A stretch of DNA of 64,000 nt from the NCBI GenBank assembly GCA_024680915.1, contig JAILBN010000097.1, positions 41,699 through 105,698 of the forward strand, written 5' to 3'. The notes beneath the pieces were generated by a model. It did not search any database. It was given only the letters and a program-made list of their open reading frames with translations, and was not told the DNA's origin. Positions 8,104 through 64,000 of this stretch are shown piece by piece. The DNA comes from Treponemataceae bacterium (GTDB lineage Bacteria > Spirochaetota > Spirochaetia > Treponematales > Treponemataceae). How positions within the stretch are numbered: the first letter of the stretch is position 1; each line of letters opens with the position of its first letter. The translations under genes were made by a program, and so were the position numbers.

Positions 8104-10365
8104 ATGTCAGAATTACTTGCCCCTGCCGGGAATATAGAAGCTTTGGATGCAGCCTTCGGTGAAGGCGCAGACGCTGTTTATATGGGATTGAAAAGTTTCA
8201 ATGCCCGTATGCGGTCATCAAATTTCGCATGGAATCAGTTTGAGGCGGCTGTTAATGCAGCTCATAAACGCGGGAAAAAAATATACGTCACAGTGAACAC
8301 CGTGGCTGAGGAAGCTGAGACAGAACGTCTTTACCGGTTTTTGGCCTACCTTGACAGCGTCGGTCCTGACGGACTTATAGTACAGGATTTCGGTGTGGTC
8401 CGTATGGTCCAGGAGTTTTTCCCTAAGCTGGAGCTTCATGCCTCTACACAGATGAACTGCGCCAGTGCTGCTGCCGTAAACCTTCTCAGCCGGGAAGGCT
8501 TTAAGCGTGTCGTTTTGGCCCGTGAGCTTTCCCTTGATGAAATAAAAGCTGTAAAAGCCTCCTCCTCCGCTGAGCTTGAGGTCTTCGTTCACGGAGCCCT
8601 CTGTGTCAGCGAATCCGGTCTCTGTCTTTTCTCCAGCTATCTGGGAGGAAAGTCTGCCAACAGGGGTATGTGTACCCAAGCCTGCCGCCGTTTGTACACA
8701 GCTGACTCCGACGGTGTCGAGAAAAGCGGTTATTTCTTCTCTCCCCATGACCTTCAGCTTATTGACCGTATTCCGGATCTTATGCAGGCAGGGGTTGAGT
8801 CCTTCAAGATTGAAGGCCGCATGAAAAGCGCAGAGTATGTGGGCAGCGTAACAGCAGCATACCGCTATGTCATGGACAATTGGGAAAAAGATAAAAAGGG
8901 TGCCATCGCTACAGGAAAGCGTATGCTCGCCACTGATTTCGCCCGGGCAAAGACCCGCTACTGGTACGATAGCAGCGACGCGGAGAATTTCCTTAACCCT
9001 GACCAGGCCGGTGGTACCGGTATTTACTTAGGTAAGATACAGACTCTTCGTAAAGAAGAGATGAATGTGAGGAACGGAGACAAAATAGAGACAGAGCGTG
9101 TGACCTTCGCTGATATCCGTGGTGGAACTTATGAACCTGATGCCGGGGATTCCATAAGACTGCATAGAAAAGACGACTCCGGACGGGAGAGTCACAAGAT
9201 AAAGCATGTGAAGATGCTTGACGGAAACCGTTGGATTGATATTCCAGAAGGCTTTGCCCAAGGCGATTCCGTATATCTTCTTCAGACCAAGGCCATGTCC
9301 AAGCGTTATCCCAGGGTACTTCCCTCAGATCTTTCTCCCTTCAGAAAACAGCCGGGAGCCCAGCTGCTTCCTGTCCTTGATCTTACTCCGGTTCCGAAAA
9401 ATGGTGTGGAAGGCTTCCCTGACGGGATTTATGTCCAGGTCTCCACGCTGAAGGACATGTTCACAGTTCTTGGAGAAAGACAGATCCGTGTGATCCTTGA
9501 ACTCAACGGGGAGACTTCCTATGATCTCTTGGAGAAGAAAAGTACTCTTCCTTATTCGAAAAAACAGATTTTTATCTCCCTTGATCCCTTCTGTCCTGCG
9601 GAGTCCGAGGAGCAGCTTTCCCAAAAGCTCGATGCTCTTATAGCAGATGGGTTCCGCCAGTTCGTGGTGAACAATCCTGCTCACATAAATATGCTGCGTG
9701 GCAAGAATGTGATGCTGCTGGGGGGACCCTACCTTTATACCTTCAATAGGTGGGCAGCTTCCTGGCTTGAGAATCAGAATATCGACTGTTTCATAACACC
9801 CATAGAGAACTCAAGGAAAAACCTTGAGGCCACCTTTGAGCCAAAAGTAAGACGTAAGGTTATGGTGACCCTTTTTGCCTATCCTGCTCTCTTCCGTATG
9901 AGGTTCAGGCTGCCGGAATCCTATGATTTCACTTATTTCACAGACAAGGAAGGCACTGTATTCAAGACTCTTTCCACTCCGTCAGACGGTTCCTTCGTCA
10001 TGCCGGAGAAGCCCTTCTCCATAGTCGACAACAAGACCCGGCTGGAAAGGGAGGGCTTCTCTCACTTCCTTATTGATTTCTCCAGAACTCAGGTTCGTAA
10101 GCCTGATTTCAAGTTCATAATGAGAGCCCTCTTCAAGGGTGATATACTTCCCGATTCTGACCGCTTCAACTGGAAGGACGGCTTCTATTCCCCTGAGAAA
10201 ATTGAAGCCTATAAGGCTGCTGCCCAACGCAATGAGCTTTCTGCCTCAAATAGCGGCAGGGGAGGCAAGGGAAGACAAGGAGCTCATGGTAATGGAGGAC
10301 AGGGCAGAAAGTCCCGTCAGGGGTATGGCCGTGGCGGCCAGCAGGGCAGGACCCGTGGCCGCTGA
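8104..10365 (+). CDS. Peptidase U32-family protein (RlhA-like) with glycine/arginine-rich tail
   Basis: About 753 residues from MSELLAPAGN, the usual start of this family; the ORF track adds nine residues. The N-terminal half is a U32 domain with the signature GRMKSAEYV and clustered cysteines (CVSESGLC and RGMCTQAC). In characterised relatives such cysteines bind an iron-sulfur cluster used for RNA or ubiquinone hydroxylation. The long second half is consistent with the RlhA type (23S rRNA C2501 hydroxylation) rather than the shorter TrhP type. The last 40 residues (SGRGGKGRQGAHGNGGQ and similar) form an RGG-like basic tail that probably contacts RNA. A strong terminator follows. Confidence 0.82.
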   Translation: MSELLAPAGNIEALDAAFGEGADAVYMGLKSFNARMRSSNFAWNQFEAAVNAAHKRGKKIYVTVNTVAEEAETERLYRFLAYLDSVGPDGLIVQDFGVVRMVQEFFPKLELHASTQMNCASAAAVNLLSREGFKRVVLARELSLDEIKAVKASSSAELEVFVHGALCVSESGLCLFSSYLGGKSANRGMCTQACRRLYTADSDGVEKSGYFFSPHDLQLIDRIPDLMQAGVESFKIEGRMKSAEYVGSVTAAYRYVMDNWEKDKKGAIATGKRMLATDFARAKTRYWYDSSDAENFLNPDQAGGTGIYLGKIQTLRKEEMNVRNGDKIETERVTFADIRGGTYEPDAGDSIRLHRKDDSGRESHKIKHVKMLDGNRWIDIPEGFAQGDSVYLLQTKAMSKRYPRVLPSDLSPFRKQPGAQLLPVLDLTPVPKNGVEGFPDGIYVQVSTLKDMFTVLGERQIRVILELNGETSYDLLEKKSTLPYSKKQIFISLDPFCPAESEEQLSQKLDALIADGFRQFVVNNPAHINMLRGKNVMLLGGPYLYTFNRWAASWLENQNIDCFITPIENSRKNLEATFEPKVRRKVMVTLFAYPALFRMRFRLPESYDFTYFTDKEGTVFKTLSTPSDGSFVMPEKPFSIVDNKTRLEREGFSHFLIDFSRTQVRKPDFKFIMRALFKGDILPDSDRFNWKDGFYSPEKIEAYKAAAQRNELSASNSGRGGKGRQGAHGNGGQGRKSRQGYGRGGQQGRTRGR

Positions 10366-49894: not shown

Positions 49895-51988
49895 GTGAAA
49901 AATGTATCAGAAAAAAAGTCCAGGAACGTCAAGTATTCAATTGGTTTTAAGCTAATATTCATTATATCGGTACTTGTAGTCGTTTCTCTTGGTACTGTAA
50001 CTTTTCTTGTAAGTTACTTGATAAGCCGTGACCTTCAGGTTTCAACGGAGTCGAGCAACTTTGATTCTACTTTGAAAGCAGCTACCACTGTAGAAAATGA
50101 ATTATCTACTATAAGGACGAATGTCTTCCTCATGCTTGATATGCTTAATGCTGCCGGATCTTCTGGTATGCTTATGAGGCAGACTTCTGCATACTTCTTT
50201 GAGCGCAACCAGAACATAGCCGCAGTCGTCGTTCCCGGCAACAGGAATCTTGTGAACAATCGTTTTTTTCTGTCCAATGAGCTTGATCAGTCTCTTGTCG
50301 ATGACTATCTTGCCCTTCACTCTGATGAGATTTCCCGTTCCGAGCAGGGTGAGTCTTTCGTCCTGAATGCGGCTCCTTCTTTCGGGCTTCCTGTCCTTGT
50401 CATGATGTACCCTTGGAAAGGGAGCGGCCTTGATGAGACCGCTGTTATTTTCTTTACCAGTTCTCTTTTGACCAGTACCTTCACAGGAACTTCCAATGTT
50501 TCCTTCATGATAAACCATGATGGGGATCTTCTCGTTCACTCTGATTTCGAGCTGACGAAAGCTGGAGCCAGCATGGCGAAATCTCCGCTGGTTCAGCAGA
50601 TGCGAGCCAATAATGACGAGAACAGGCAGGTTCTTTTTACCGACGAGGACGGAAAAGAATATTTCGGCTCCTATTGTAAGATTTCTCCTGCTGATATAGG
50701 TGTTCTTTCTATGGTCGAAAAGGAGAAGGCACTGAAACCTGTTACTAACCAGACTCGGTTGAATATATATTTGGCCATTGCCGTTCTTTTCCTGGCAATC
50801 CTGTTCATCTTCTTCTATTCTAAGACTTTGAGTAAGCCCCTTTCCCTTCTTACTAACATCGCTGATGAGATAAACCAGGGTAATTTCGAGACGAAGCTTT
50901 TTGATAAGCTTACGACCAAGCGGGGGGACGAAATAGGTGTTCTTTTCGAAAGTACTAAGAATGAGCAGCAGATTCTTAACACCGTAAGTAAGCTTACCAA
51001 CAAGGGTGTTGCTAAGGCTATAGTACGTAAAGAGATAAATTTCGAGCCCCACTTGAAGGATGTAACGATCTTTTTCAGTGATATCCGTGGTTTCACTGCT
51101 ATAAGTGATGGCTTCAACAAACGTTTTGGCAAAGATTCTCCGCGTGAGATTATAGGATTCTTGAATGACTATATGAGCCGCATGGTCAACTGTATCACCC
51201 TGACCGGAGGCAACGTCGATAAGTTCGAAGGTGACGCGGTCATGGCCGTATGGGGTGTATTGAGGGATGACAGCCTTGAATATGAGGATATGGCGGACAA
51301 CAATCCTCTCAAAAAAGAGCTTAAGGAAAAACACGAAAGACATATCAAAGCTGATGCCATAAACGCTATCCGTGGAACTATAGCAATGCGCTATGCGCTG
51401 ATGGAATATAACAAGGAAGCCGAAGCTTTCACTAAGGCCCATGAGAAAGAACCGCTGGCAAAATATAAGCCTCATATAAGGATCGGTTGTGGTCTGAATT
51501 CCGGTCGTGCCACCGTTGGTTTCATGGGTTCCTATGATAAACTTGAGTTTACCTCCATCGGAGATGCGGTAAACCTTGCCTCCCGTACAGAAAGTTCGAA
51601 CAAGCCTTGTGGTACGGATGTTCTTATTACGGAGGATACCTATAATCTTCTTAAATATGATTTCATAAAATCAGAGTTCAACAATTTCAAAATTAAGGAA
51701 GAAAACAAAAAGGACGAGATAATCGTTGAGGTAATTCCTGTTACCTTTGAGGTCAAAGGAAAGGGAAAGCAGCACTTCTATGGTGTAGTCAATATGCCTC
51801 AGTTCGATATAGAAGCCTTCTTTAGGGAAGGTGATCCGAATTTCGTTCTTGATTCCGATTGTGCGAAATCTGTTGGGCCAGACGGACCAAAAACTTTGGA
51901 AGAAGTTAGGAGATTGCTTGGAATTGCCACACCGGATTTCGGCGGAGTGAACTTGGATGCAGAAGAAAACAAAGTCACGGCTAGTTGA
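49895..51988 (+). CDS. Membrane-bound class III adenylate cyclase
   Basis: 697 residues from a GTG start with GGAG 6 nt upstream; the ORF track uses a TTG that overlaps this site. A transmembrane helix near 20-45 is followed by an extracytoplasmic sensor domain (to about 285, Cache-like by layout), a second helix near 292-312, a HAMP-like linker and the cyclase domain. Metal aspartates lie in IFFSDIRGFT and DKFEGDAVMAVWG, and the transition-state residues in TSIGDAVNLASR. The lysine in DKFEGD favours ATP over GTP. An insert rich in K and E splits the catalytic domain. The gene overlaps the FecR gene by 32 nt. Confidence 0.9.
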   Translation: MKNVSEKKSRNVKYSIGFKLIFIISVLVVVSLGTVTFLVSYLISRDLQVSTESSNFDSTLKAATTVENELSTIRTNVFLMLDMLNAAGSSGMLMRQTSAYFFERNQNIAAVVVPGNRNLVNNRFFLSNELDQSLVDDYLALHSDEISRSEQGESFVLNAAPSFGLPVLVMMYPWKGSGLDETAVIFFTSSLLTSTFTGTSNVSFMINHDGDLLVHSDFELTKAGASMAKSPLVQQMRANNDENRQVLFTDEDGKEYFGSYCKISPADIGVLSMVEKEKALKPVTNQTRLNIYLAIAVLFLAILFIFFYSKTLSKPLSLLTNIADEINQGNFETKLFDKLTTKRGDEIGVLFESTKNEQQILNTVSKLTNKGVAKAIVRKEINFEPHLKDVTIFFSDIRGFTAISDGFNKRFGKDSPREIIGFLNDYMSRMVNCITLTGGNVDKFEGDAVMAVWGVLRDDSLEYEDMADNNPLKKELKEKHERHIKADAINAIRGTIAMRYALMEYNKEAEAFTKAHEKEPLAKYKPHIRIGCGLNSGRATVGFMGSYDKLEFTSIGDAVNLASRTESSNKPCGTDVLITEDTYNLLKYDFIKSEFNNFKIKEENKKDEIIVEVIPVTFEVKGKGKQHFYGVVNMPQFDIEAFFREGDPNFVLDSDCAKSVGPDGPKTLEEVRRLLGIATPDFGGVNLDAEENKVTAS

Positions 51989-54900
51989 TTTTTTAGTTAT
52001 GCTTGTCTGTCTTGCAGGTTCCGCCGTCAGTGTCTGGCAGTTTTGGCAGGAACTCAACAAGACTCTTGTAAAACTCAATGAAGAACCGATAGCGACTATA
52101 ACATTTAAACAGAATACAGCTCAGCGTAAGTTTTCTGATGATTTCGTATGGGACAGGTTACGTCAGAATTCCCCTGTATATAACGGGGATACTATACGAA
52201 CGGCAGAGCTGTCTGAAGCGACTATATATTTCAACGACGGCAATATAATGGATCTGAGTGAGAACACTATGGCCCGCATTTCCCTTGGTAAAGAGGGTGA
52301 GACTGCCGTCGATTTCTCTGGTGGTCAGATTGCCGTTCAGGCTGCTGAAAGCGGCTTGACCATCACATCCGGTTCCTCCGTAGTTGATATAACTAAAGGT
52401 GCTTCTGTAACGGCAAGCTCTGTTGCATCCGATAGTGGAAGTGCTTCGCAGGCAGGAGCTGCCGGCGCTGCTCCTGCAGAGGAGGTTTTCCGTGTTCAGG
52501 TCCAGTCAGGAACTGCTGCCGTGTCTACTGGGAAAGAAGAAGTTTCTCTTTCTGCCGGAAAGACTGCTGATTTGAAAGGGGATGGACAGGTTGAGAAAAA
52601 ACTGCTTTCTGTTATATCCCCAAATCCTGAGACAAAAATCATAAGCTTCGATGAGGAGGCTTATCCGGTTGATTTCCGTTGGGATTCAGAGGGGGCGGAT
52701 GTAAAGCTTGAGTTTTCGGATACAAAGACCTTTGCTGACATAAAAAAATCTTATGAGTATTCCGGAATCGAAAATGTAACTATGAGACTTTCTTCCGGCA
52801 CCTATTACTGGCGCTTGACAGCTGGGAAAGAGTCTCTCAATGGTAAAATCACTATATATGAATCGAAGAGACCTTCTGTAATAGCTCCTGTACCTGACTA
52901 TACCGCATATTACCGTACGGTAAAGCCTTCCATCCGTTTTATCTGGTCTGAAAGCGAGAAGGCTACGACCTATTCTTTTGAAGTCGCTGATAACGCGAAT
53001 ATGGAAAACCCTGTTATTTCCCAGAGGGTTCAGCAGAATTCCAGTATTGTCACCACCCTTTCCGAGGGAAAGTGGTACTGGCGTGTCACTCCTTTTTATA
53101 CGATCAATAACATAGGTTTCTCTCATCCTTCGGATGTGAATTCCTTCATTATAGAAAAGAGCGGCGATCTTGTCGCTCCTGAGCTGCAGATGCCTAAGGC
53201 TGGTTCTGTGGTGAGTACTAAGGTTCCTGGTACGTCCGGAGCTGAGTCTCAGAATATTTTGTTCTCTTGGAAAGATGATGTGGAAGCCACATCTTATACA
53301 GTGACCATCATTCCGGATTCTCCTGCCTACGGCTCTACGGTGACACAGACTGTCAATACAAACTTCTTCTCCCTTGACACATCTCAGTATCAGATCGGAA
53401 ACGGAAGCTGGAAATGGTATGTAGAGATGAAAGATGTGGAGGGAAATTCCGTAAAAACCGAAAGTATTCCGTTCTTTGCAATGGATTCGGAAATTTCTCA
53501 GAAGCCTTTGTTCCCTTCCAACGGATATTGTCTTGCTTCTTCTCGTGTTCATGATACGACCTTCGTTTGGCGCTCAAATATTTCTTCCGAAATGGAAGTT
53601 CAGTTTGCCTCAGACCCGGCCTTCAATAATATAGCTACCTCGCTTACTACCAAGAATACCTCTGCCTCTGGAATTGACCTTCCTGTAGGAACCTACTACT
53701 GGCGCATCGTAACAAGGAATGATGCTGGTGATTTTATCTCTGAGACAGCTCAGTTTGAGGTGGAGGCACCTCTGGCTGCTCCTGAATGTCTTATTCCTGA
53801 GGATGGAATCCGTTTCGTCGTGGCTGAGGACAGGACTGTCGGTTTGTCATGGAAGCCTGTTGAGACCGCTGACTATTATCAGCTCAGGGTTTATGGTTCA
53901 GAGGATTTGAGTGATATCATCTACGAGAATACCTATATAGAAGACGACGGTAGTGATGAATATTCCGAGAAGGTTTTTTTTGATGGTATGGATGAGAAGA
54001 CCTATTACTGGAGTGTTCAGGCCTATCGTGAGGAATCTGAGACAAGATCCAGGTCTGTAGGCCTTTTGGGTAAATATTCTTTCTTCCTTCGCATACTTAA
54101 GCCGATTACACTTGCATCTCCCGGTGATGGAGCCGTCCTCGAAGGACTGGATGTGGTCATGAATCCCCCCGATATGGAGTGGGAATCAATAGATGAGCTG
54201 AACAGCTCTGAGCTCCGTATTTATAAGAATTCTGTTGACGAAAAAAATATGGTTGCCGTCATTGACAACCCGGAAATGAAGGTCGAGATGCCCCGGCTTT
54301 ATGAAGGCACCTATTTCTGGACGGTGAGTGGTATCACTTGGGATAATCTTGACGCTTCCTCAAAGCAAGTCATGAATTTCCGTGTAAACAAGATTCCTCC
54401 TATGAATGCTCCCGTTCAGGTTTCACCCCTTGTGACGGATGTGTTCAGTACCGCATACTTTGATAAGACTCTGGACATAACCTTCAGCTGGAATCCTATC
54501 ATGTATGCGACCAAATACATATTCACTCTTAAAGATACCGACGGAAAAGTGCTCAGGACAGAAGAAGTAGCCAGCCCAAGGACATCATGCAGCGTTGATT
54601 TCAGGGACATTATCCATGAGGGGACTTATTCTTGGACTGTAGAAGCACGGACAGTATTCGATGACGGAGTGATAAGGTATGGAAATATCAGCACGTCAGA
54701 CTTTTCCATTTCTTTGCCCCAGATGGAAGTTCCTGTAAAGAATCCTGTGAGCAAAAATAATACATTCGATGAAGGCCTGTATTACGATGAAAGAGCCATC
54801 AATTTCAGTTGGATTCCTGTTCCCTATGCTGATGAATATGTGTTCACGCTGAAAGATTCCCATGGACAAATAATTAAAGAAGAGTATTTTAGAAACCGCA

Positions 54901-57389
54901 ACGCTCTTCCATCTTCAGAGCTTGATGAGCCGGAGAACTCCTATGTATTTACGGATGTGGAAAGCCTTATGCCGGGTTCCTACATCTGGATGGTGGAGGC
55001 AAGAAATTATATAAATGGAGAACTGAGGCAGAAGGGAAAAGTCATAGGCAACAGTTTCTATATAAAAGTCAACGAGCTGAGTCCTCCTGTGAAGGAATAT
55101 CCTGCTGAGGACGGAGTTTTAGCTTATGAGCTGTTTGATCGTGATGAAGAACTCCGTTTTGTATGGCAGCCTGTCAGATTCGCCGATGAGTATATTTTCT
55201 GCCTCTACGATGGTGACGGAAACCTTATGATCAAAGAATCCATGGAGGAAACAGAATTCTCTTATATGGATTTGGATTCTTTGACGGAAGGAAGATATAT
55301 ATGGACAGTGGAAGCCCTGTCTCATCTAAGAGGAAAGGTCCTTCAATCTGGAAGAGTGGAAGAGTCTGCCTTCGAGATCTCTTTCCCGGAGCTGGAGCCC
55401 CCTGAAAAAGTATTGCCGGAAGAGAATTATGTCATTGATGCAGAATTTATTCTTGCTGACAAGGATCTCGTATTCTCTTGGAATAGTGTTCAATACGCAG
55501 ATGAGTATATCCTTACTGTTAAGGATCCTTATGGTAGCATTATAAGGGAAGTCAGCATAACAGAAGGGGGTGAAGAATCCTCTCTATCCTATACAATTCC
55601 TGCCTTCGATCTTATGACTCAAGGTACCTACCTATGGACTGTGGAAGCTTTGTCCCATTACCATGGAAGGCTTTTGCAGAGAGGTCGTGTAGAAGAAAGC
55701 TCCTTTGCTGTGACCATACTTGAACTTGATGCTCCCGAAAGTGCCGCTCCTGCTTCTGGATATATCTTTGATACTGCTTTCTTCAAAAAGGATGAGCCTC
55801 TTGTTTTCAGCTGGGATCCTGTACCACTGGCGGGAGATTATCAGTTCACCTTGCTTGATTCCACGGGGACTGTGCTGGAACAGAGCACTGTTTCTGAAAC
55901 TTCTGTATCTGTGGATCCTGCGAAATTCATAGCTCCAGGTGAATATAGCTGGACCGTGGAAGCTCATTCTTACTATAAAGAGAAGCTTTTCCAGAATGGA
56001 AAGAAAGCTGTCACGTCCTTCCATACAGAGATTCCTCTCTTGGATATGCCCGCTCTTGTATTGCCGGCAGCAGACGAGACTTATGATACTTCCTATTTCA
56101 AACGGGAGACATCCCAGTCCTTCACTTGGGAAAGTGTTCCCCTTGCTGATGAATATGTATTCAGATTGGAGAATCCGAATGGTGCGGTTATAGAGGAAGA
56201 AATCTTGCCTGCGGATACGCTCACTTTCTCTGTTGATACTGAGAGATTCTCCTATGAGGGTGTATACAAGTGGACCATTGAGCCAAGGACATATTTCAGG
56301 GAAAAGCTTCTTCAGGTCGGGGTAAAAGCCAGTCGGTCTTTCTCTGTGGTAATGCCAATTCTTCCTCAGCCTGCTGACAGGCTCCCTGCGAACGGTACTG
56401 AATACGGAGTTGCCCTTTTCAAGACCGTGGATGCCGTTGATTTCTCTTTGCATAATGTCGATACTGCTGATTGTTATTCCTTTATAGTGAGAAAAGAAGA
56501 CGGTAGCCGTATTTTTGATACCATCATACCGGCCGATAGTGCTGATGATGCAGGTGTCATAAGATACAGGATGAAGGCCTCTGATTTCATGACGGAAGGC
56601 AGGTACCTATGGTCTGTAGAAGCCAGGGTTCTGTATAAGGATCGTATCGTTCAGTCAAGCGAAATTGAGGAAGACTTCTTCACCGTGAAGCTGCCCCTTG
56701 TTCCTGCTCCTGAAATAACTTCTGGTCTTTCACAGCTGGTCGATTATGATTACATAAATGCCTACAATGATATCCTGCTTCAATGGGATTCTGTGAAATA
56801 CGCAGATGAATATAAGTTTACGATATTCAATCCGGATGATTCTGTTCGCGATGAAAAGACTCTTCCTGCCGGCTCTTACTTGCGTTACATAGTACCTGTA
56901 TCCTCTTTCGCAGCCTCAGGAGATTACAAGTGGAAGGTAGAGGCAATCGTATCATACCAAGGTAGTGATTTTGTACACGGAAATGAAGCTGAGGGCTGTA
57001 TTACCATTGCTTTGCCGGAACTTGCTGCGGCAGAAGTGATTTCTCCTGAAAACGGAGTAGTTCTTAATGCTTCTTATTTCCGAAAGAACAGGGAGATTGT
57101 TTTTAGTTGGACTCCTGTTCCTTATACATCGGGATATAACTTCACTCTTTATGGAGCAGATGGAAATATCCTTGAAAGCTATTCTCTTGGACCTGATGTG
57201 ACTGAGATTGTGTTCACCGATTTGAAGCAGCTCTCTTCGGGCGTCTTCAAATGGACCGTGGGAACATATTACTCAAAGGGTGATAAAGTGATTGTTGAAG
57301 GTACGCCTTCTGAAAACGAATTCTCTATAGATCTGCCGACTTTGAAAGCTCCTTCTGTCGGTAACACAGGCAGGTTATATGGAAATTAA
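51957..57389 (+). CDS. Giant FecR-domain protein with tandem fibronectin-like modules
   Basis: An 1810-residue protein with one N-terminal transmembrane helix (LVDFLVMLVCLAGSAVSVWQF). A FecR domain follows (about 45-190: VYNGDTIRTAELSEATIYFNDGN), with a serine/alanine-rich linker inside it. The rest is a chain of beta-sandwich modules. About five shorter ones carry the pattern TYYWRL/KWYWRV, and then come about nine of 105-115 residues built as FSWxPVxYADEYxFTLKD...GxYxWTVEA. It must extend far into the periplasm or beyond. The start lies inside the cyclase gene, with GGAG 10 nt before it. A structural or sensing link from inner membrane to the outer-membrane barrel encoded next is inferred. 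Confidence 0.85.
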   Translation: MQKKTKSRLVDFLVMLVCLAGSAVSVWQFWQELNKTLVKLNEEPIATITFKQNTAQRKFSDDFVWDRLRQNSPVYNGDTIRTAELSEATIYFNDGNIMDLSENTMARISLGKEGETAVDFSGGQIAVQAAESGLTITSGSSVVDITKGASVTASSVASDSGSASQAGAAGAAPAEEVFRVQVQSGTAAVSTGKEEVSLSAGKTADLKGDGQVEKKLLSVISPNPETKIISFDEEAYPVDFRWDSEGADVKLEFSDTKTFADIKKSYEYSGIENVTMRLSSGTYYWRLTAGKESLNGKITIYESKRPSVIAPVPDYTAYYRTVKPSIRFIWSESEKATTYSFEVADNANMENPVISQRVQQNSSIVTTLSEGKWYWRVTPFYTINNIGFSHPSDVNSFIIEKSGDLVAPELQMPKAGSVVSTKVPGTSGAESQNILFSWKDDVEATSYTVTIIPDSPAYGSTVTQTVNTNFFSLDTSQYQIGNGSWKWYVEMKDVEGNSVKTESIPFFAMDSEISQKPLFPSNGYCLASSRVHDTTFVWRSNISSEMEVQFASDPAFNNIATSLTTKNTSASGIDLPVGTYYWRIVTRNDAGDFISETAQFEVEAPLAAPECLIPEDGIRFVVAEDRTVGLSWKPVETADYYQLRVYGSEDLSDIIYENTYIEDDGSDEYSEKVFFDGMDEKTYYWSVQAYREESETRSRSVGLLGKYSFFLRILKPITLASPGDGAVLEGLDVVMNPPDMEWESIDELNSSELRIYKNSVDEKNMVAVIDNPEMKVEMPRLYEGTYFWTVSGITWDNLDASSKQVMNFRVNKIPPMNAPVQVSPLVTDVFSTAYFDKTLDITFSWNPIMYATKYIFTLKDTDGKVLRTEEVASPRTSCSVDFRDIIHEGTYSWTVEARTVFDDGVIRYGNISTSDFSISLPQMEVPVKNPVSKNNTFDEGLYYDERAINFSWIPVPYADEYVFTLKDSHGQIIKEEYFRNRNALPSSELDEPENSYVFTDVESLMPGSYIWMVEARNYINGELRQKGKVIGNSFYIKVNELSPPVKEYPAEDGVLAYELFDRDEELRFVWQPVRFADEYIFCLYDGDGNLMIKESMEETEFSYMDLDSLTEGRYIWTVEALSHLRGKVLQSGRVEESAFEISFPELEPPEKVLPEENYVIDAEFILADKDLVFSWNSVQYADEYILTVKDPYGSIIREVSITEGGEESSLSYTIPAFDLMTQGTYLWTVEALSHYHGRLLQRGRVEESSFAVTILELDAPESAAPASGYIFDTAFFKKDEPLVFSWDPVPLAGDYQFTLLDSTGTVLEQSTVSETSVSVDPAKFIAPGEYSWTVEAHSYYKEKLFQNGKKAVTSFHTEIPLLDMPALVLPAADETYDTSYFKRETSQSFTWESVPLADEYVFRLENPNGAVIEEEILPADTLTFSVDTERFSYEGVYKWTIEPRTYFREKLLQVGVKASRSFSVVMPILPQPADRLPANGTEYGVALFKTVDAVDFSLHNVDTADCYSFIVRKEDGSRIFDTIIPADSADDAGVIRYRMKASDFMTEGRYLWSVEARVLYKDRIVQSSEIEEDFFTVKLPLVPAPEITSGLSQLVDYDYINAYNDILLQWDSVKYADEYKFTIFNPDDSVRDEKTLPAGSYLRYIVPVSSFAASGDYKWKVEAIVSYQGSDFVHGNEAEGCITIALPELAAAEVISPENGVVLNASYFRKNREIVFSWTPVPYTSGYNFTLYGADGNILESYSLGPDVTEIVFTDLKQLSSGVFKWTVGTYYSKGDKVIVEGTPSENEFSIDLPTLKAPSVGNTGRLYGN

Positions 57390-58677
57390 AAAGATAAAGA
57401 TTCTATTCTATATATTATTGATTCTTCTTTCTCTTCCCTGCTTTTCTCAAGTCGCTGAGAATATGGATGAACCTTTGGAAGATGAGGGTTCTTTCTATAT
57501 CATGGTTGATGAGGAGAATAACACTACTATCGTTCAGCATTTTTCCTGGGAAGCCTCGGAAGATGTTTTCATGTACCAGTTCGTGTTGGAGAAAATGAAT
57601 GAGAACGGTGAGTTCGAAGAATATGATGTTCAGGATATAGAAGAGAACTTTGTTGATTATACCCTAAGTGCGGGAGAATATCGCTACAAAATAGGCCTCT
57701 ACAATTTTCTTGATATCATTGAGGTTGAGACTCCTTGGACGGAAGTTTCTATCATAAAGGCTATAAAACCTGCGATAAATGATGTTTCACCTAGTCTTGT
57801 GTATATTGATACAGGTTTTGACGGGGAATTCACTGTTAAAGGTAAAGACTTGAGTGAGGATATAAGCTTTAAGCTCATAAATGAAGAAACAGGACTTGTT
57901 CTTGCTGCTGATGTTTTGGAAAAAGACATGGAGAAGAACCGGTTCACCATAAAGATAGACCCCCTTCAGGTGGAGCCTGGTACATATACTCTTTCCGCGA
58001 GGAATGACGGAGGTCTTACTTTCGAGTACTCTCCGCTTACCTTGATTTTCAGTGATAACTTCGACATCTGTGTCTCTCTGGGGGCTGCTTATCCTTTATC
58101 TTTGCAGAAAGAGCTGATGACCGATTATTGGAATTGGGAATCATTTAGCAAGCAAAGTCAGACTTCGATGAGATATAATGCACATTTTACGTTTGTTCCC
58201 TTTAAGATGCGGCTTAATTATATAGGTTTTACCTTAAATGCTTCAGCCTTCGCTTTTGCATACGACTATTATGAGAATGAGCCTGAGGAGTGGAGTCTTG
58301 GTAACCTGAATATGTTCTTATTTACGACTTGGAAAGATCAATTGACTGCTGATGACCATCCTCTTTATAGGATATTAGCGACCCTTTATCCTGTGAATAT
58401 AATGGTGAATTATCAACGTATGTTGAGTCCTTACTTCATACTTGATACTCATATTGGTGCTGGTCTTACATTGATAGATATGTCTATAGAATATCCTGTA
58501 GGAGACACTGCAGTGTTTAAAACCTTTGGAATCAGTGCGACAGGTGGTGTCGGTATTCAATATTCTCCTTGGCAGCATTTTTATATGGAACTTGCTGGCG
58601 ACTATACATTTACCCTTTGTCCCACTTTCAATATTCAGTATTTTACTCCTGCCTTCTCTTTGGGTTGGCGTTTCTGA
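57379..58677 (+). CDS. Exported protein with FN3-like domain and outer-membrane beta-barrel
   Basis: A 432-residue protein with a signal peptide ending PCFSQ. Residues 35-130 repeat the style of the FecR modules (FSWEASEDVFMYQFVLEKM, AGEYRYKIGLYN). An IPT-like segment follows (PAINDVSPSLVYIDTG). The last 220 residues alternate polar and aromatic strands and end ...PAFSLGWRF; a terminal phenylalanine is typical of outer-membrane barrels. The start overlaps the giant gene by 11 nt, so all three proteins are produced together. From memory, Treponema pallidum has a cyclase gene near the fibronectin-binding TP0483, which may be the equivalent locus; this needs checking. Confidence 0.75.
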   Translation: MEIKKIKILFYILLILLSLPCFSQVAENMDEPLEDEGSFYIMVDEENNTTIVQHFSWEASEDVFMYQFVLEKMNENGEFEEYDVQDIEENFVDYTLSAGEYRYKIGLYNFLDIIEVETPWTEVSIIKAIKPAINDVSPSLVYIDTGFDGEFTVKGKDLSEDISFKLINEETGLVLAADVLEKDMEKNRFTIKIDPLQVEPGTYTLSARNDGGLTFEYSPLTLIFSDNFDICVSLGAAYPLSLQKELMTDYWNWESFSKQSQTSMRYNAHFTFVPFKMRLNYIGFTLNASAFAFAYDYYENEPEEWSLGNLNMFLFTTWKDQLTADDHPLYRILATLYPVNIMVNYQRMLSPYFILDTHIGAGLTLIDMSIEYPVGDTAVFKTFGISATGGVGIQYSPWQHFYMELAGDYTFTLCPTFNIQYFTPAFSLGWRF

Positions 58678-58736
58678 CAGATTTATTGATTCAGGCGGTA
58701 CCGTATGGTACCGTAGATTTTTACGGAGGTGTTATA

Positions 58737-62077: not shown

Positions 62078-62317
62078 CTTATAATAGTACAGGAAGAAAT
62101 TCCAGATCACGAGTAATTGGTCGTACTGATAGGTTGTTTTTCCTCTCTTTGCCCCGGAGCATGTCTGGTGGAATAGTGCAAGAATTCTTTTATCCCGACA
62201 GAAGTCTTGTATTTTTCCCTCAGTGTCTTTTCTGATACTCGTTCTTCTGTTTTCTTTATGTACTTTTGTCCGCTTTTCGGTTTGCTTAGCAAACTTAAGA
62301 AAATATGGAGGTATATG

Positions 62318-62710
62318 ATGAAAAAAAAGATTGTTCTAGCCTTTTTAGTGATTATGGGCCTTATGGTGCTTTCAAGCTTCACTGGCGTAGATGGCAAAAA
62401 GCTTGCCGATGGCACTTACAGCGTGGATGTGACCTTTGAGGGAGGCTCAGGAAAGGCAAAAATCCTTTCTCCCGCGGTACTTACTGTAAAAGATGGAGAG
62501 GCAGTGGTTACTGTCACTTGGAGCAGCAAGAATTACGACTATATGATAGTCGATGGCGAAAAGTACCTGAATCTTACTCCAGGCAAATCCTCATCCTTTT
62601 CTTTCCCTATAAAAGAGCTTGGTAAAGTTATGGACGTAATCGGTAATTCTGTTGCCATGAGTAAACCTCACGAAATCGACTACAAGCTGACTTTCACTCT
62701 GTCAGAATAG
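62318..62710 (+). CDS. Small exported ligand-binding-like protein under B12 riboswitch
   Basis: 130 residues from the second ATG of a pair (GGAGG 6 nt upstream); the ORF track begins 37 residues earlier. The signal peptide MKKKIVLAFLVIMGLMVLSSFTG has no lipobox cysteine. The mature domain starts KKLADGTYSVDVTFEGGSGKAKI and includes SSKNYDYMIVDGEKYLNL and MSKPHEIDYKLTFTL. Similar domains, from memory, occur beside iron, haem or corrinoid ABC transporters in Firmicutes and have an immunoglobulin-like fold. With the riboswitch upstream and a BtuF-like gene 3 nt downstream, corrinoid capture or hand-off is the likely role. Confidence 0.75.
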   Translation: MKKKIVLAFLVIMGLMVLSSFTGVDGKKLADGTYSVDVTFEGGSGKAKILSPAVLTVKDGEAVVTVTWSSKNYDYMIVDGEKYLNLTPGKSSSFSFPIKELGKVMDVIGNSVAMSKPHEIDYKLTFTLSE

Positions 62711-62713
62711 GTC

Positions 62714-64000
62714 ATGACCTTAGATATAAAAAATAGTTTTTATGTGACGGTTTTTTCAGCAGTTCTTCTGTGTGTACTGGTGTGGGGTTTTACAGGCTGC
62801 GACAAAAAAGGAGAGGCATCGGCCCTCCCTTCAGGCAGCCTTTCTGCTGCTGACTCCAGTGTGAACAGAGAATCGGGAGTATCGGACGAAGCTTACGAAA
62901 TAGGTGAACTTGGCGGACCGTCTTTTTCTTCCCTCATCAAAGCTGGGAGTATGAGTCTGCGCTATGCCACTCAGTTCTCGGTGGATGATTATATGCTGGA
63001 AGCTGTTGCCTTAGAAGCCCCCGCTGGCCGAAGTGACGGGGGCTCTCCTGAGGGGACCGGTAGGATCGCCGGAGCAGGCGGCAGTTCAGGTGGGGCATCG
63101 CCAATCTACAAGCTGGTGAATATCGCCGATACCGACAAGTTTCTTCTTGTGCCTGAGGGTTTTCCTGTCCCCGCTGATATTCCGCCTGATATAAAGCCTT
63201 TGCTTCTCCCTCTGGATGGTGTTTATGTAGTGGCCTCTGCCGCAATGGATCTGATAAATGAGACTGGCTCTTTGGATAAGGTGCTTTTTTCTGGAACCAA
63301 GGCTAAGGATTGGAGCATTCCTGCTGTGTCCGCTGCCATGGAGAATGGGAAAATAGCCTATGCAGGAAAGTACAGTGCCCCTGATTACGAGCTTCTTACC
63401 GCCAATGGCTGTGACTTTGCCATTGAGAACACCATGATTTACCACAAGCCTGAGGTAAAGGAGAAGCTTGAGGAGCTGGGAATTCCGGTTCTTGTGGAAT
63501 ACTCCTTTTATGAGCCTCATCCTCTGGGAAGGCTTGAGTGGATAAAGCTCTACGGCCTTCTTTTCGGCAGCGAGGAAAGGGCTGTCTCTTATTATGATGA
63601 CCAGCTTAGACGGATAGAACCCATCATGGAGAAAAAGCCTTCTGGAAAGAGCGTGGCTTTCTTCTATGTGAACAATAATGGTGCTGTGAACGTGCGTAAG
63701 CCCAATGATTACGTGGTAAAGATGATAAGTCTTTCCGGCGGCAGATATGCCCTGGAAGACCTTCTTGTGGAGGAGGAGAATTCTCTTTCCACAATGAACA
63801 TGATGATGGAGGATTTCTATGTTTCCTGCGTCAACTCTGATATACTCATTTATAACGGCACTATAGATTCTGAGTTTTCCTCTATCGAGGATTTATTCGC
63901 TAAAAGCGAGCTTTTCCGTGACTTTGCCGCAGTGAAGAATAAAAAGGTTTATTTCGTCTCCAAGGATTTTTATCAGCAGACCACAGGAATCGCTGATTTT
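62714..64000 (+). CDS. BtuF/FepB-like substrate-binding lipoprotein, partial at window edge
   Basis: An open frame of 429 codons runs off the window, which is why the ORF track omits it. It begins MTLDIKNSFYVTVF and has a lipobox WGFTGC. The body fits a cluster A-2 periplasmic binding protein: SMSLRYATQFSVDDYML, YAGKYSAPDYELLTANGCDFAIENTMI, LGIPVLVEYSFYEPHPLGRLEWIKLYGLLFG, and NKKVYFVSKDF. It would deliver a corrinoid to a BtuCD-type permease expected beyond the edge. A glycine/serine-rich insert near residue 105-125 (GRSDGGSPEGTGRIAGAGGSSGG) is unusual. It starts 3 nt after the previous stop. Confidence 0.85.
   Translation, partial: MTLDIKNSFYVTVFSAVLLCVLVWGFTGCDKKGEASALPSGSLSAADSSVNRESGVSDEAYEIGELGGPSFSSLIKAGSMSLRYATQFSVDDYMLEAVALEAPAGRSDGGSPEGTGRIAGAGGSSGGASPIYKLVNIADTDKFLLVPEGFPVPADIPPDIKPLLLPLDGVYVVASAAMDLINETGSLDKVLFSGTKAKDWSIPAVSAAMENGKIAYAGKYSAPDYELLTANGCDFAIENTMIYHKPEVKEKLEELGIPVLVEYSFYEPHPLGRLEWIKLYGLLFGSEERAVSYYDDQLRRIEPIMEKKPSGKSVAFFYVNNNGAVNVRKPNDYVVKMISLSGGRYALEDLLVEEENSLSTMNMMMEDFYVSCVNSDILIYNGTIDSEFSSIEDLFAKSELFRDFAAVKNKKVYFVSKDFYQQTTGIADF

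Follow-up and report, generated by a model that had tools for sequence, protein, structure and literature searches.

We examined a 64,000-nucleotide (nt) stretch of the genome of a Treponemataceae bacterium (assembly GCA_024680915.1, contig JAILBN010000097.1), hereafter the window, for a group of three genes coding for a class III adenylate cyclase (49895..51988), a FecR-domain protein with a long rod of immunoglobulin (Ig)-type modules (51957..57389) and a predicted outer-membrane barrel (57379..58677). The open reading frame (ORF) listing of the window places all three on the forward strand (+), each overlapping the next, by 32 nt at 51957..51988 in a frame that is conserved in relatives and by 11 nt at 57379..57389, as the original prediction had read the locus. 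The host genome comprises 3.15 Mb, with the window in its contig C8; among named genomes, those closest to it belong to Treponemataceae sampled from guts, including those of ruminants.

The cyclase gene begins at a GTG codon (49895) preceded by a ribosome-binding-like GGAG and encodes 697 amino acids (aa). Hydrophobic segments at residues 21-39 and 289-307 bracket a periplasmic sensor domain (residues ~40-288; 50012..50758), which is followed by a HAMP domain (residues 307-352; 50813..50950), a class III catalytic domain (residues 387-603; 51053..51703) and a conserved C-terminal tail, an architecture that agrees with the earlier description of a cyclase with an extracytoplasmic sensor. The catalytic domain shows the class IIIb residue pattern, in which residues of the D396/D447 type are the two metal ligands, a Lys/Thr pair recognises adenine, and residues of the N560/R564 type form the transition-state pair; D396, D447, K443, T553, N560 and R564 are invariant across 30 relatives, and the cyclase is the most conserved of the three members. 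Among solved structures, CyaB and further adenylate cyclases come closest, and K443 and T553 point to cyclic adenosine monophosphate (cAMP) as the product. The window sensor gave no dCache_1 match at E 0.05; such matches were found in the sensors of 5 of the 30 relatives (best E 1.7e-6, the displayed scores lying below the 45-bit Pfam cut-off) and in Leptospira-like members, again below the curated cut-off.

The FecR protein (1810 aa) has a single N-terminal membrane segment, a signal anchor at residues 9-27 (51981..52037) with only 8 residues before it, followed by the FecR domain PF04773 (residues 78-148; 52188..52400). Against a cut-off of 24 bits, this domain scored 21.5 bits in the whole protein and 28 bits in a scan restricted to the N-terminal domain, and it was matched by 25 of 27 relatives, which upholds the description of a single-span FecR-domain protein of 1810 residues; a sequence comparison of the domain with solved structures gave no match. 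The anchor and the FecR domain together suggest a periplasmic location. Residues 1-926 are collinear with complete 930-aa relatives, covering the FecR domain and seven core beta-sandwich modules (residues 208-917; 52578..54707), and a lineage-specific expansion adds eight modules, all of the last (seventh) type (54708..57386). The total is thus about 15 modules rather than the approximately 14 first proposed. A structural model of the 938-aa relative from Ca. Treponema caballi (L141; predicted local distance difference test score, pLDDT, 86) displays a helix at residues 9-37 and, after it, the FecR domain and a string of beta-sandwiches, and a fold search with it returned multi-domain Ig and fibronectin type III (FN3) proteins. 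Giant size was dropped as a defining trait, since the extra half consists of the eight added modules of one type and most relatives measure 920-1000 aa, making 1810 aa exceptional within a range of about 350 to 1914 aa across loci. The last module type stands at nine copies in the lineage of the window, the FecR proteins of loci L137 and L138 reach 1914 aa, and the same-genus member G002, the genome of the modelled relative, keeps the short form.

The third gene encodes a 432-aa protein for which a model was built from the window protein and 53 relatives (pLDDT 85.9). The model contains a signal peptide, two Ig-type domains (57493..58047), FN3-like at residues 39-125 and IPT/TIG-like at residues 132-223, and eight strands at 229-431 forming a barrel (residues 229-432; 58063..58674) that closes with GWRF, the C-terminal residue F432 being aromatic. 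The best solved matches in a fold search were OmpA, Ail, OmpX and NspA, so that by its modelled fold the protein is an 8-stranded outer-membrane barrel of the OmpA/OmpX type, in line with the earlier assignment. The proposed resemblance between its N-terminal region and the rod modules was likewise recovered, the Ig pair aligning with the last two FecR modules at a profile-profile E of 2.3e-7, a similarity that points to shared ancestry. In OmpA/OmpX-type barrels both termini are periplasmic, and the Ig pair should therefore face the rod.

Co-conservation and coupling of the three genes

When this gene order was sought in other spirochaetes, including the TP0483-TP0485 region of Treponema pallidum, the three genes were found to be co-conserved far beyond Treponema. 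Across the loci of a named genome collection, found by the FecR domain, the sensor-cyclase lies directly upstream of the FecR gene in 78/80 cases and the barrel directly downstream in 68/71 evaluable ones; the non-adjacent flanking ORFs of these loci include only two sensor-cyclases and three barrel-like ORFs. A search that started from the barrel gave matches in 33 of 79 relative genomes, most of the loci having FecR and cyclase genes upstream. When the search was reversed to start from the sensor domain, a FecR domain lay downstream in 27 of 30 loci, the three misses being a contig end, a short flank (L276, the same place being intact in L061) and one real absence (L282). The cyclase sensor domain goes together with the FecR gene, and the 11 genomes of the family that gave no FecR or barrel match have cyclase matches only in the HAMP and catalytic part. 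At the level of the phylum, the FecR domain was found in 209 of 393 genomes, and the same order recurs, with few exceptions, in 40 sampled neighbourhoods from other families, orders and classes and in 12 further ones picked via the LIC11435 family. The module is present in many gut Treponema and in spirochaetes with unrelated ways of life, those of termite guts among them, and its layout is shared by more than 100 loci, so the operon arrangement originally proposed is not a chance one.

Variants of the layout were also recorded. Two tandem cyclases precede the FecR gene in L096 (2844-5886), the barrel lies on the opposite strand in L238 (3423-4421), and two barrels stand in tandem in L239 (2925-5761). 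FecR proteins listed without an adjoining cyclase include those of L094 (4788-7562), L095 (6411-9278) and L282, and in genome G068 the module seems to be split, because two sensor-cyclases lie on another contig. Barrel-like genes without adjoining FecR and cyclase genes occur in L043 (12687-13916, after a Clp-type ATPase), L065 (3479-4873), L066 (5830-7095) and L068 (3787-4893). The module is present in many copies in some members of the phylum (G116, G106 and G281), the number of FecR matches reaching 7, and the class III cyclase domains of G116 number 32.

The co-conservation extends to the gene boundaries. Measured with longest-ORF starts, the cyclase/FecR overlap in the named loci spans 29-77 nt (35 nt in 48/78), always in the identical frame. 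The barrel ATG lies inside the FecR gene, 11 nt (57 loci) or 14 nt (6 loci) before its stop codon, in 63/72 named loci; the 11-nt overlap is also found in the Leptospira-like L229, L231 and L234, and a ribosome-binding-like stretch precedes the barrel ATG in 88/113 loci overall. FecR proteins conserve a Y-G-x ending (Y-G-N in the window, whose codons include the barrel ATG) largely because the barrel start codon is being read in another frame, and a C-terminal x-Y-G-x protein motif was accordingly rejected as being, at least in part, the overlapping ATG and ribosome-binding site. In L213 (~9830-9890), alignment with L207-L209 reveals a clean 25-nt deletion through which the FecR stop and barrel start are both lost, giving one long in-frame gene in which the barrel signal peptide becomes internal. 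This arrangement fits joint action of the two proteins without being proof of it. Fusions as a class were discarded as proof of contact, only the L213 case looking real: the cyclase-FecR fusion of L101 depends on a stretch of six consecutive A and may be a sequencing error, as may the L046/L160 fusion, because the cyclase of that genome is broken too.

The surroundings of the module are unrelated to it, with a family 2 glycosyl hydrolase gene upstream and genes for desulfoferrodoxin and an acyl-ACP (acyl carrier protein) thioesterase downstream. A terminator-like hairpin with a T-rich tract after it, identified by a consensus scan only, lies 17 nt past the barrel stop (58695..58714, +) and is the probable end of the operon; a promoter scan returned sites no commoner than in shuffles. 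Further downstream (62207-64000), a gene for a small secreted protein without a Pfam match directly precedes one for a Peripla_BP_2 substrate-binding protein that is truncated by the window end, possibly representing a metal or cofactor uptake operon.

The module of a T. pallidum-like genome

A T. pallidum-like genome (G025; one contig, 1,139,633 bp) contains the cyclase, FecR and barrel genes in this order (L133, G025:C1:508000-523000). Its FecR protein is up to 671 aa long, with about 4 rod modules against 15 in the window, and its barrel ATG, 14 nt before the FecR stop, gives a barrel of 374 aa, the same length as TP0483 (PMC10118025). The three genes correspond to TP0485-TP0484-TP0483 (cyclase-FecR-barrel). 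A single-protein search of this genome with the window barrel gave no match, and profiles were needed to recover its counterpart. The genome has one class III cyclase domain, the one within the module, with the same six catalytic residues intact; it also has five cNMP (cyclic nucleotide)-binding matches, and no match was found for CYTH or class I cyclases. The module cyclase is thus the only recognisable adenylate cyclase of this genome.

A candidate trans-envelope route to cAMP and its alternatives

We consider it reasonably probable that the three genes make up one conserved spirochaete unit, a trans-envelope sensor of the outer envelope that alters cellular cAMP. The barrel would be seated in the outer membrane, its two Ig-type domains lying on the periplasmic side, and the FecR protein would be anchored in the inner membrane and extend outward as a rod of Ig-type modules. 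The far end of the rod, which is of the same module type as the periplasmic domains of the barrel, would contact the barrel, and at the near end the FecR domain, close to the inner membrane, would meet the cyclase sensor in the periplasm. Whatever changes at the barrel, be it a ligand or the strain or spacing of the envelope, could then be relayed along the rod and via HAMP as far as the cyclase, with altered cAMP as the outcome. In this scheme we infer the contacts, the stimulus and the direction of signalling; a FecR protein that links the two membranes and relays the state of the envelope to cAMP synthesis, as the original prediction suggested, fits the predicted anatomy and is the best reading of it.

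Several points weigh against this interpretation. Gene order and coupling indicate joint production, not joint action, and a small ligand could be bound by the cyclase sensor without help from the other two proteins. The inter-domain geometry of the modelled rod is uncertain (predicted template modelling score, pTM, 0.43 for L141), a few FecR genes of the family have no adjoining cyclase (L094, L095, L210), and a few barrel-like genes are solitary (L043, L065, L066, L068). Moreover, 15 modules arranged end to end would probably exceed the width of the periplasm; for this reason, and because rod length ranges from about 350 to 1914 residues, a strict, fixed-length ruler is an unlikely role for the rod.

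The same anatomy would also suit a mainly mechanical tether between the membranes, with the cyclase kept for co-regulation or placement and not controlled by its neighbours. A single-span rod of Ig modules combined with an outer-membrane barrel bearing periplasmic Ig domains is what such a tether would look like, and the distances of the FecR proteins correlate with those of the barrels at r 0.92, above the values of each with the cyclase (0.84 and 0.83). However, the invariant catalytic residues make a scaffold less likely, the cyclase is the best conserved member and its sensor accompanies the FecR gene, a pure tether would not need an adjacent cyclase across the phylum, and rod lengths vary strongly, so that we regard this explanation as unlikely. 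Signalling might alternatively begin in the cyclase sensor itself, which would detect a periplasmic small molecule delivered or admitted by the FecR and barrel proteins, with no mechanical or contact signal. The dCache-like matches in 5/30 relatives and in Leptospira-like members are consistent with this, yet their scores remain under the curated cut-off, 8-stranded barrels of the OmpX type usually lack a wide pore, and the rod is left unexplained; we hold this to be very unlikely.

Work on individual counterparts has suggested a different role, in which barrel and rod act at the surface or bind the host, as adhesins or mimics, and are co-transcribed with a cyclase by chance. In vitro binding to fibronectin and laminin is reported for TP0483 (PMC10118025), TP0484 has been modelled as Anosmin-1-like and read as possible host mimicry (PMC5956850), and Leptospira LIC11436, a candidate FecR counterpart by its numbering beside LIC11435 only, binds fibronectin (PMC11350617). 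Against this stand the occurrence of the module in spirochaetes with unrelated lifestyles, many gut Treponema and inhabitants of termite guts included, the membrane anchor and FecR domain, which suggest a periplasmic place for the rod, and the disputed outer-membrane location of TP0483, immunisation with which was not protective (PMC10118025); we therefore find this role quite unlikely. A degenerate Fec-type sigma-regulator system, for which the PF04773 domain and the presence of an outer-membrane partner could be cited, is scarcely credible and was rejected: the FecR protein has no cytoplasmic anti-sigma part, because only 8 residues precede its membrane segment, the barrel is 8-stranded and not a TonB receptor, and neither a sigma factor nor a TonB receptor was found in the nine flanking proteins scanned. 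Nor do these belong to the conserved order, in which the neighbours of the FecR gene are the cyclase and the small barrel, and the earlier claim that the module is distinct from Fec systems is thereby sustained.

If the trans-envelope sensor is real, the outer surface of spirochaetes would be connected directly to a second messenger, a connection of which the literature searched contains no description, and TP0483 and TP0484, treated until now as a possible adhesin and a possible host mimic, would become signalling parts held in common with spirochaetes, of the gut and elsewhere, that are not known to be pathogenic. The cyclase of the module would then be the likely source of the cAMP read by the CRP homologue TP0262, which has been reported to bind tpr promoters (PMC10118025, PMC7864442). 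We suggest more tentatively, as a possibility rather than an expectation, that the module is a three-part trans-envelope cAMP receptor reporting surface events to CRP-type regulators and, being the only cAMP source in T. pallidum, an upstream switch of tpr surface-antigen expression acting through TP0262.

Comparison with known systems

Among the closest known systems is FecA-FecR-FecI of the E. coli type, which shares a single-span inner-membrane protein whose periplasmic FecR domain may listen to an outer-membrane protein. The module differs from it in having a cyclase and not a sigma factor as its output, an 8-stranded barrel with Ig domains, a long Ig rod and no anti-sigma part. A Burkholderia operon also places a FecR-domain protein beside a membrane sensor that is not of the sigma type, but there the sensor is a histidine kinase with CHASE2, LysM takes the place of the Ig rod, and the available part of the account includes no outer-membrane barrel (PMC5192318). 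In Magnetospirillum, the gene of the exported Ig-domain protein MtxA immediately precedes that of an adenylate cyclase whose sensor is extracytoplasmic; this system differs in its TPR and single Ig domain and its CHASE2 sensor, and no FecR rod or barrel is reported in the available part of that account (PMC4439547). The Ig family of MtxA weakly matches the Ig domains of the module barrel. The class IIIb adenylate cyclases CyaB and CyaC agree with the module cyclase in catalytic residues and provide its nearest structures, although they lack its sensor and its two partner proteins.

Within the spirochaetes, the Leptospira LIC11435 family (NCBIfam NF047756), for which no characterisation was found in the literature searched, matches the barrel proteins of the module. 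The window barrel reaches 25.5 bits, far under the curated cut-off of 380 bits, which was passed in 0/393 genomes; in the genomes with the best LIC11435 matches, those genes lie directly downstream of FecR and cyclase genes. No paper treating TP0485-TP0484-TP0483 as one system was found in a search that left subscription journals outside its scope. These three have so far been described singly, as a cyclase, a host mimic and a fibronectin-binding protein, and they share the gene order and the domains of the window module.

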